Source: Paracoccaceae bacterium (GTDB lineage Bacteria; Pseudomonadota; Alphaproteobacteria; Rhodobacterales; Rhodobacteraceae). From it: a stretch of DNA of 38,534 bases. Positions within the stretch are counted from its first letter, which is position 1. The number at the start of each line of letters is the position of its first letter. Both the position numbers and the translations under genes were made by a program. This document shows positions 7,131 through 36,790 of the stretch, one piece after another. The stretch covers positions 1 through 38,534 of the forward strand of contig PUOA01000305.1 of the NCBI GenBank assembly GCA_003551925.1. The letters are read 5' to 3'. A model generated the notes under the pieces. That model made no database searches. It worked only from the letters and a program-made list of their open reading frames with translations, and was not told the DNA's origin.

Positions 7131-7180
7131 AGCGCCCGCGAGGTGCAACGGGGCGGGTGGGTGGGCGCCGAGCGGGCGCT
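7131..7180 (-). repeat. Stem-loop with C-rich loop on the sense (minus) strand; plus strand carries GGGGCGGGTGGGTGGG
   Basis: AGCGCCCGC/GCGGGCGCT arms; shares the 22-mer CGGCGCCCACCCACCCGCCCCG (as reverse complement) with 36739-36760. Confidence 0.7.
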
Positions 7181-7200: not shown

Positions 7201-7569
7201 TCAGCGCTCGCCCGGTGCGTCCACGTTGCCGAACTTGATCGATTCGCCGCAGCCGCAGGCTTCGGTCACGTTGGGGTTGCGGAACCTGAAGCCGCTTTCC
7301 AGCAGCCCGGATTCATAGTCGATTTCGGTGCCGAACAGGAACATCTGCGCCATCGGCGCGATGATCACGCGCGCGCCGTCCTGTTCGACGACCTCTTCGT
7401 GCTCGCCGACCTCGGCGGCGGTTTCCATGGTGTATTCCATGCCCGCGCAGCCGCCCTTCTTCACGCCGACGCGCAGCCCCTGCGCGCTCTCGCGTTCCAT
7501 CAGTCGGGCGATGTGGCGCACCGCGCGCGGGGTCAGGGTGACAGGAGGGTTTCCGGGGATGCCAAACAT
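7201..7569 (-). CDS. HesB/IscA/SufA-family Fe-S cluster assembly scaffold
   Basis: GCAGMEYTM and C-terminal CGCGESIKF cysteine motif. Confidence 0.93.
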   Translation of the reverse strand: MFGIPGNPPVTLTPRAVRHIARLMERESAQGLRVGVKKGGCAGMEYTMETAAEVGEHEEVVEQDGARVIIAPMAQMFLFGTEIDYESGLLESGFRFRNPNVTEACGCGESIKFGNVDAPGER

Positions 7570-17410: not shown

Positions 17411-17650
17411 ATGTCCGCACCAAAGACCAACCTCGAAAAGCAGAAACGCCGCCATATCGGGCCGATCCTGGGCATCACCCTGGCGCTGGTGTTCGCCGGG
17501 CTGTTGCTGCTGTGGTTTCTCGGCAGTGTGCTGGTGGAAGAGCCGGTGGACACCGAGGCCGCCAGCCCGACCGACGTGCCCGAGGCGGTGATCGATCCGG
17601 TCAGCCCCGATGACAGCCCCGCCATCGAAGAGGGCGATCCCGCGGACTGA
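17411..17650 (+). CDS. Small single-TM hypothetical protein with acidic C-terminal tail
   Basis: RBS aaaggaggg; TM GPILGITLALVFAGLLLLWFLGSVLV. Confidence 0.65.
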   Translation: MSAPKTNLEKQKRRHIGPILGITLALVFAGLLLLWFLGSVLVEEPVDTEAASPTDVPEAVIDPVSPDDSPAIEEGDPAD

Positions 17651-17690
17651 CGGGTTGCCTTTGCGCGCGGGTCGGGTATCGGCTTCGGTC

Positions 17691-18185
17691 ATGAACACGA
17701 CATCCGATGCCTGCCTGACGCTCACCGCAGACACCCCCGAGGCGACAGCCGAGGTGGCGCGCGCGCTGGCGCCGCTGGTGGGGGCAGGCGACACGCTGCT
17801 GCTGCACGGCCCGGTCGGCGCGGGCAAGACGCATTTCGCGCGCGCGCTCATCCAGACACGGCTGGCGGAGGTCGGGCGGCATGAGGATGTGCCGTCGCCC
17901 AGTTTCACGCTGGTGCAGACCTACGCGGCCGGCGATCTGGAGATCTGGCATGTCGATCTCTACCGGCTGAGCCACCCCGACGAGGTGATCGAGTTGGGGC
18001 TCGACGAGGCGCTGGCCTCGGCGCTGTGCCTGATCGAATGGCCCGACCGGCTGGGCGCGGCGCCAGGCGGCGCGCTCGACATCACGCTGCACGACGGTCC
18101 GGAAGAGGACGCGCGTGTGGTGGCGTTTCGGGGAGCATCCGAACGCTGGTCCGGGGTGTTGGCGGCGCTGCGCGCAGCGGGCTGA
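17691..18185 (+). CDS. tsaE: tRNA threonylcarbamoyladenosine biosynthesis ATPase TsaE
   Basis: Walker A GPVGAGKTHFARAL; SPSFTLVQTY; WHVDLYRL. Confidence 0.95.
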   Translation: MNTTSDACLTLTADTPEATAEVARALAPLVGAGDTLLLHGPVGAGKTHFARALIQTRLAEVGRHEDVPSPSFTLVQTYAAGDLEIWHVDLYRLSHPDEVIELGLDEALASALCLIEWPDRLGAAPGGALDITLHDGPEEDARVVAFRGASERWSGVLAALRAAG

Positions 18186-18207
18186 TCGGGCGCGGCGTGG
18201 TCGGCGG

Positions 18208-18270
18208 CGCGCCCTCCGCGCCCAGGCGTCGCCCACCCTCCCACCCCGCCGCCTGGGCGCGGAGGGCGCG
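18208..18270 (+). repeat. 21-bp perfect inverted repeat with a 21-nt C-rich loop; minus strand carries GGGGTGGGAGGGTGGG
   Basis: CGCGCCCTCCGCGCCCAGGCG (18208-18228) / CGCCTGGGCGCGGAGGGCGCG (18250-18270). Confidence 0.8.
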
Positions 18271-35061: not shown

Positions 35062-36705
35062 ATGGCGCGGTATGTGTTCATCACCGGGGGTGTGGTGTCC
35101 TCGCTGGGCAAGGGGCTGGCCTCGGCCGCGCTGGGGGCGTTGTTGCAGGCGCGCGGCTTCACCGTGCGGTTGCGCAAGCTGGACCCGTATCTGAACGTCG
35201 ACCCCGGCACCATGTCGCCGTTCGAACACGGCGAGGTGTTCGTCACCGATGACGGCGCCGAGACCGACCTGGACCTCGGCCATTACGAGCGCTTTACCGG
35301 TGTCCCCGCGCGGCGCACCGATTCGATCAGCTCGGGCCGCATCTACATGAACGTGCTCGAGAAGGAGCGCCGCGGCGACTATCTGGGCAAGACGATCCAG
35401 GTGATCCCGCATGTCACCAATGAAATCAAGGACTTCCTGTCCGTGGGTGACGGTGAGACGGATTTCATGCTGTGCGAGATCGGCGGCACCGTCGGCGATA
35501 TCGAGGGTCTGCCGTTCTTCGAGGCGATCCGCCAGTTCGCGCATGAGCGCCCGCGCGGGCAGTGTATCTTCATGCATCTGACGCTGCTGCCCTGGCTTGC
35601 CGCCAGCGGCGAGCTGAAGACCAAGCCCACGCAGCATTCGGTCAAGGAACTGCGCGCCATCGGCATCGCGCCCGACGTGCTGGTGTGCCGGTCCGAACAG
35701 CCGATCCCCGACAAGGAGCGCGCCAAGATCGCGCTGTTCTGCAACGTGCGCCCCGAGGCGGTGATCCCCGCCTACGACCTGCGCTCGATCTACGAGGCGC
35801 CGCTGGCCTATCACAAGGTCGGGCTGGATCAGGCGGTGCTGGACGCCTTCGGCATCGCTCCCGCGCCGCGCCCCGACATGCGCCGCTGGGAAGACGTGAT
35901 GGACCGGCTCGAGAACGCCGAAGGGCAGGTCCGCGTGGCCATCATCGGCAAGTACACGCAGCTCGAAGACGCCTACAAGTCGATCAAGGAGGCGCTGACG
36001 CATGGCGGCATGGCCAACCGCGTCGGCGTCCATGTGGAGTGGATCGATGCCGAGATCTTCGAGCGCGAGGACCCCGCGCCGTATCTTCAGGGCATCCACG
36101 CGATTCTTGTGCCGGGCGGCTTCGGCGAGCGCGGCACCGAAGGCAAGATCCGCGCTGCCGCCTGGGCGCGCGAGCGCAAGATCCCGTATCTGGGTATTTG
36201 CCTCGGGATGCAGATGGCGGTGGTCGAGGCCGCGCGCAACCTGGCGGGCCTGCCCGATGCCGGTTCCGAGGAGTTCGACCACGAGGCCGGCGCGAAGCGG
36301 TTCACCCCGGTGGTGTATCACCTGAAGGAGTGGGTCCAGGGCAATCACCGCGTCGAACGCCGCCCCGGCGACGACAAGGGCGGCACCATGCGGCTGGGCG
36401 CGTATTCGGCGACGCTCGCCGACGGTTCGCGCGCGGCCGAGGTCTATGGCGGCACGAAGATCGAGGAACGCCACCGCCACCGCTACGAGGTCGACATCGC
36501 GTTTCGCGAGAAGCTCGAGGAGGCGGGCCTGCGGTTCTCGGGCATGTCCCCCGATGGGCGGCTGCCCGAGATCGTCGAGCACGCGGGGCATCCATGGTTC
36601 ATCGGCGTGCAGTTCCACCCCGAGCTGAAATCCAAACCCTTCGCGCCGCACCCGCTGTTCGCCGACTTCATCCGCGCCGCGGTGGAGACCTCGCGCCTCG
36701 TCTGA
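35062..36705 (+). CDS. pyrG: CTP synthase
   Basis: [32 protein letters not shown]; glutaminase [28 protein letters not shown]. Confidence 0.98.
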
Positions 36706-36711
36706 CACGCT

Positions 36712-36790
36712 GCCCGGGCCTGCCCCCCGGTCGCGCCGCGGCGCCCACCCACCCGCCCCGCCGCGGCGCGACCGGGGCGCAGGCCCGGGC
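36712..36790 (+). repeat. 32-nt near-perfect inverted repeat (1 mismatch) with a 15-nt C-rich loop; minus strand carries GGGGCGGGTGGGTGGG
   Basis: GCCCGGGCCTGCCCCCCGGTCGCGCCGCGGCG (36712-36743) / CGCCGCGGCGCGACCGGGGCGCAGGCCCGGGC (36759-36790). Confidence 0.85.

Follow-up and report, generated by a model that had tools for sequence, protein, structure and literature searches.

Behind the stop codon of the CTP synthase gene pyrG lies a long, nearly perfect inverted repeat with a C-rich loop, and the question is which nucleic acid strand folds there and to what effect. It lies in a window of 38,534 nucleotides (the whole stretch of Paracoccaceae DNA that was analyzed). The repeat belongs to a real, large, and structure-constrained family, which combines a quadruplex-type loop with placement at gene 3' ends and a strand bias.

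Copies in the window and the architecture of the family

A first-pass annotation of the window had described three copies of a dispersed repeat, and we located all of them in the sequence at the coordinates it gave (Table 1). The upstream genes it named, pyrG, sufA, and tsaE, were confirmed by Pfam. The arm length, single mismatch, loop length, and distance to the stop codon that it gave for the pyrG copy are likewise correct, as is the G-quadruplex (G4) motif on the template strand: the complement of the loop, GGGCGGGTGGGTGGG, contains four G tracts separated by 1-nt loops. RNAfold with the G4 option predicts that a quadruplex caps this hairpin on the complementary strand. The exact 22-mer that had been seen to recur on the minus strand at 7149-7170 is indeed there, and forms the core of a weaker hairpin located about 20 nt past the sufA stop, with internal mismatches including a C.A and a score of 33 bits with the family covariance model. 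The tsaE copy lies between two convergent genes, tsaE and one for a UPF0176/rhodanese protein. As the annotation had noted, no U-tract is present 3' of the three window copies.

Table 1. Hairpin copies in the window and the genes upstream of them
Feature	Position	Strand	Description
pyrG copy, left arm	36712..36743	+	32 nt; starts 6 nt past the pyrG stop (TGA)
pyrG copy, loop	36744..36758	+	15-nt C-tract loop CCCACCCACCCGCCC
pyrG copy, right arm	36759..36790	+	32 bp pairing with left arm, one mismatch
sufA copy	~7131..7180	-	Imperfect hairpin AGCGCCCGC..GCGGGCGCT; C-tract loop as in pyrG copy
tsaE copy	~18205..18270	+	~25-bp palindrome, loop CCCACCCTCCCACCC
pyrG (CTP synthase)	35062..36705	+	Adjoins the best copy; PyrG by Pfam
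sufA-type Fe-S assembly gene	7201..7569	-	Fe-S_biosyn by Pfam
tsaE	17610..18185	+	TsaE by Pfam

The family is indeed dispersed, and far larger than three copies, with about 50 in the window's own genome. A covariance model search identified 53 copies in this 3.0-Mb genome (G000), a lower bound given the loop-motif matches at its contig ends, 112 copies in a complete congener (G002), 47 and 59 in two further congeners (G001 and G004, respectively), and 36 in a genome from another genus (G022). A 16-mer search of G000 returned about 80 near matches, about 45 of which are loops of long hairpins with differing arms. About 18 loop-motif matches in G000, mostly family copies, fall within about 150 bases of a contig end (contigs C2, C27, C29, C45, C51, C73, C74, C102, C127, C136, C138, C151, C203, C235, C252, C257, C295, and C335); palindromes seem to break short-read assemblies. 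Among 298 sampled Rhodobacteraceae genomes, 64 contain family matches; the distribution is patchy, with many copies in about a dozen genera. The family is almost wholly absent from the named relatives reached via PyrG (best protein identity 89%), and 1.46 Mb of their DNA contained one (CCCN)3CCC motif and zero such hairpins. In genomes with a GC content of about 58-60%, the same loop is surrounded by AT-containing stems, so the family does not simply result from GC content.

The comparison with Rfam that had been proposed gave no known family: there was no match in the window, and 11 copy-bearing loci searched down to E = 10 produced only a glycine riboswitch and chance matches. A tandem pair of glycine riboswitches is located near one G022 copy (L117, 670-880). 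A search of the open-access literature for the loop sequence found no description, and the family is apparently an undescribed strand-specific DNA element.

Each copy consists of a 17-35 bp palindrome, with freely varying and covarying stems, around a fixed 15-nt loop of the form (CCCR)3CCC. When 21 copies are aligned without gaps, 91% of the stem cells are paired vs. 56% after shuffling, G-U pairs are absent, and 18 of 19 pairs covary, so that the compensatory stem changes foreseen for a genuine family are present. The association of loop and stem is tight in both directions. In 796 kb of G002, about 52 of the 57 strong intergenic hairpins with a loop of at least 10 nt have C-tract loops. The (CCCN)3CCC motif occurs inside hairpins in 98 of 101 cases (52/54 in the same 796 kb, 24/25 in G097, and 22/22 in G267) vs. 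none of 15 C4 motifs with longer spacers (0/6 in the 796 kb of G002), a coupling far beyond chance. Read on the G-strand, the loop spacers are T (535), C (195), and A (10), that is, T or C in 730 of 741. Such a preference is expected for single-nucleotide quadruplex loops. Four G3 tracts with short loops, a defining feature of a DNA G-quadruplex element, are conserved across copies. In G002, a second hairpin, short and perfectly paired, directly adjoins the 3' side of many copies whose stem is 18 bp, but not of long-stem copies. This second hairpin (for example, at G002 loci L259, L265, and L285) has variable arms and nearly no wobble pairs on either strand.

Placement behind stop codons and the folding strand

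For the placement counts, genes were predicted with a home-made caller based on codon usage, in which stops are exact and starts approximate. The copy is located 3' of a same-strand gene in 80 of 84 cases in G002 (expected 43%) and in 37 of 42 cases in G000, at a median distance past the stop of 28 and 12 nt, respectively, and with the C-loop in the sense strand of the gene. Thus the position just 3' of stops and the sense orientation that the window copies suggested hold for most copies counted in the window's genus. Convergent gene pairs, which hold 17% of the intergenic bases in G002, harbor 55 of 85 copies. Neighboring copies on opposite strands were observed in G002 at C73:56979/57392, C117:137944/138069, and C117:96246/96357, mostly at convergent genes with their own copy each. 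Among 449 testable gene ends of G002, the element occurs at 45 and recognizable U-tract terminators at 36. The two overlap at 4 of 449 ends, which is about chance, and mutual exclusion between them was rejected.

The sense orientation and the closeness to stops are what one would expect if the functional molecule were a hairpin in the 3'-UTR of the message, with its C-rich loop serving as a U-tract-free terminator, a landing pad for Rho or another protein, or a guard against exonucleases. The frequency of the element at gene ends, similar to that of U-tract terminators, and the second adjoining hairpin in many copies also agree with such a role. However, the T-tract is missing, the flanks are G-rich in contrast to the C-rich, G-poor Rho sites (a Rho-type C-over-G bias is thereby ruled out), the replication polarity seen in other genera (see below) is unexpected for an RNA element, and the stem mismatches point to the other strand.

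A hairpin maintained as RNA tolerates G.U but not A.C pairs. Scored with equal penalties, after a pre-filter that favored G.T, the sense-strand stem mismatches in 255 copies comprise 110 A.C, 101 C.C, and 70 C.T vs. 14 G.T, 10 G.G, and 17 G.A; a single fixed position in the window's genus accounts for some of the C.C mismatches. Without positions 4-6 from the loop, the ratio is still 68 A.C to 12 G.T. The control, U-tract terminators of the same bacterial family, shows the reverse (43 G.U vs. 5 A.C; Fisher p ~1e-22). On the complementary strand, the sense A.C, C.C, and C.T become G.T, G.G, and G.A, which are mild mismatches. It is therefore on the G-loop strand, complementary to the message and the transcription template of the adjacent gene, that the stability of the fold is maintained. 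Reverse-complementing the alignment gives 8 G-U pairs vs. 0 in the sense alignment. Standard folding energies, with the quadruplex uncounted, likewise favor the G-strand hairpin over its complement, in 241 of 255 copies under RNA parameters and in 181 of 255 under DNA parameters. In view of the wobble test and its terminator control, the sense-RNA hairpin with a C-rich loop, which the annotation had favored, was ruled out as the leading reading, and we regard it as rather unlikely. Its other suggestion, that the loop pairs with Shine-Dalgarno sequences, appears improbable, as the loop reads CCCACCC and not the anti-Shine-Dalgarno CCUCC, and the folding strand argues against it as well.

The main alternative to selection on the G-strand is that a strand-biased mutation process could mimic the mismatch asymmetry. 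Known biases of transcription and replication, C-to-T on the coding and the leading strand, act in the opposite direction. RNA of the opposite strand as the folded molecule would give the same asymmetry, since the spectrum cannot separate DNA from RNA. Such a transcript, folded into a hairpin with a quadruplex loop, might stop convergent or antisense transcription before the 3' end of the neighboring gene, consistent with the wobble signature, with the 65% of copies between convergent genes, and with convergent pairs that can have one copy each. However, the A.C to G.T counts are 35/5 in tandem contexts, where no gene lies on the G-strand, and 50/5 in convergent ones; this equal asymmetry indicates that the RNA of a convergent gene is not the explanation. 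Moreover, the copies hug the sense gene and not the convergent one, and the T-tract is missing on that side save for 1-2 bases in G002. We consider this reading unlikely.

Replication polarity and turnover

The strand of the copies follows the replichore in G097, G269, G124, G022, and G267, but not in the window's genus, where it follows genes only (66 of 100 copies on one strand in G002, as by chance). Within a contig, the copies on one strand number 43 of 43 in G097, 21 of 21 in G269, 17 of 17 in G124, and 33 of 36 in G022; G079 shows the same tendency without significance, and G267 has a strand switch between 2.15 and 2.97 Mb. In these polar genera, the C-strand is the leading strand by local GC skew, and the G-strand is the leading-strand template, although only 52-57% of coding is co-directional. 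The orientation relative to genes varies: 25 of 26 copies are gene-sense in G097, 18 of 23 in G267 (where the others lie antisense to head-on genes, at their 3' ends), and about half in G022. The position at genes and the polarity of replication can thus be told apart as two constraints. The G022 copies L297-L316 include two stem subfamilies, CCGCTGCCCTG... and GCAGCGCCGGGC..., with the same replication polarity but apparently different orientation relative to genes.

A replication-oriented chromosome element, with a role in fork passage, repair, or segregation, and only secondarily gene-oriented and confined to gene ends in the window's genus, would account for the uniform strand in contigs of G097, G269, and G124 (and largely in G022), for the flips at replichore borders in G267, and for a leading C-strand in spite of weakly co-directional coding. 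It is quite improbable, given that the polarity is at chance level in the window's genus, that the copies are spread along the chromosome, and that nearly all of them in G097 are in the sense orientation at gene 3' ends. In 14 carrier genomes (G000-G004, G022, G097, G267, and others), no SbcD homologue scored above the curated cut-off, which might make long palindromes tolerable. As no genome of either group passes this cut-off, SbcD does not discriminate between them, and loss of SbcCD was set aside as the reason for the lost replication polarity.

Turnover of individual sites is rapid, with G000 and G002 sharing only 2 of the 9 that were testable. Related upstream genes have copies in two congeners in 11 pairs; among the orthologous copies, G000_33/G002_8 and G000_34/G002_61 have identical loops and compensated arms. 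Downstream of pyrG, the copy in G003 is one of its own, with different arms, and those in G001 and G004 lie on the opposite strand, in the orientation of a copy that would belong to a convergent neighbor; none was found in G002 or in seven inspected pyrG loci of other genera. A conserved site after pyrG was rejected on these grounds.

Fast turnover, together with the multi-copy, extragenic, and patchy occurrence and the near-identical copies AAGCGCCCCCGAGCCGCGC... in G002, would fit a mobile repeat of the REP type that is non-autonomous and has no function in the cell. In such a repeat, however, one would not expect mostly unrelated stems around a constant loop, nor the precise placement behind stops and the strand bias. 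The Y1 (RAYT) transposase domain PF01797 matched in one of 14 genomes, G000, where the match is borderline at the cut-off; RAYT mobility was rejected in view of its absence from G002 and G022, and a purely mobile repeat is very unlikely.

A candidate barrier and its relation to known systems

Our best explanation, put forward tentatively, is that gene 3' ends carry a quadruplex-capped DNA hairpin with the role of a strand-specific barrier. Once single-stranded, the G-strand, which is the template of the adjacent gene, would form a long hairpin whose cap is a parallel three-tier G-quadruplex with single-pyrimidine loops. The folded species would be DNA, and the quadruplex would form in vivo. 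The barrier may stall or release RNA polymerase leaving the gene, and so keep transcripts from running into the neighboring gene. In the other genera, polarity would keep the quadruplex off the lagging-strand template, the track of the replicative helicase DnaB.

In line with this explanation, bacterial G4s in general are more frequent on the template strand in the region past transcript ends (PMC12581993). Published work in Escherichia coli, however, finds that G4s form under the influence of transcription when the G-rich strand is not the template (PMC7603069), and hence the orientation observed here might avoid G4 formation and not use it. Avoidance of G4s in the non-template strand and mRNA could explain the orientation without a positive role of the quadruplex, whereas the constancy of the loop argues for such a role. 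It is possible, though doubtful, that the family represents a new class, in which quadruplex-capped DNA hairpins mark gene 3' ends as one-way barriers with a polarity set by transcription or replication depending on the lineage.

The family bears on how GC-rich bacteria without U-tracts end most of their transcripts: it is a candidate signal that is frequent, strictly placed, and evolutionarily maintained, with a textbook quadruplex sequence as its conserved part. If the barrier explanation is true, it would provide a natural, multi-copy, lineage-wide case in bacteria of a DNA quadruplex whose role is strand-specific, and it would explain why draft assemblies of these genomes tend to break at element sites. 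The change from one polarity to the other, gene or replication, among genera lends itself to direct comparison.

The Cuckoo/CcsR small RNAs of alphaproteobacteria are stem-loops with CCUCCUCCC C-rich loops, encoded by sRNA genes beside DUF1127. The family shares with them C-rich-loop stem-loops in Rhodobacteraceae, but has a (CCCR)3CCC loop, lies in the window downstream of pyrG, sufA, and tsaE, and has no Rfam match. The guard G4 of Neisseria pilE has four G3 tracts with very short loops and is orientation-dependent; it is a single locus, serves antigenic variation, and has no palindrome. The family resembles it in the tracts, short loops, and orientation, and differs in being multi-copy and palindromic. 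RAYT-linked REP and BIME elements are, like the family, short multi-copy extragenic palindromes, often behind genes. They have a conserved stem sequence, whereas here the loop is constant and the stems are free; the shared palindrome sequence that marks a REP is lacking, although one G002 subfamily partly shows it. The 15-nt loop and arms of up to 35 bp also exceed the RepRanger defaults of an 11-nt loop and a 32-nt palindrome (PMC12306157).

Intrinsic (Rho-independent) terminators and hairpin clusters (PMC8355165) are similar in having a GC-rich hairpin just past the stop, and the window's genus often has two hairpins in a row, as in the clusters. In contrast to intrinsic terminators, the loop of the family is long and fixed, its wobble pairs lie on the opposite strand, and a U-tract is lacking, with no T enrichment beyond 1-2 bases on either side of the hairpin; the sense-strand excess of A.C over G.T is the opposite of what an RNA hairpin that tolerates G.U and not A.C would show. 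The template-strand G4s enriched past bacterial transcript ends in Quadrupia (PMC12581993) likewise place a G4 motif on the template strand 3' of genes, whereas the G4 of the family caps a long palindrome. Bacterial G4s are also generally enriched on the leading strand (PMC12581993); in the polar genera, the G-strand of the family is on the lagging strand, the reverse of this bias.
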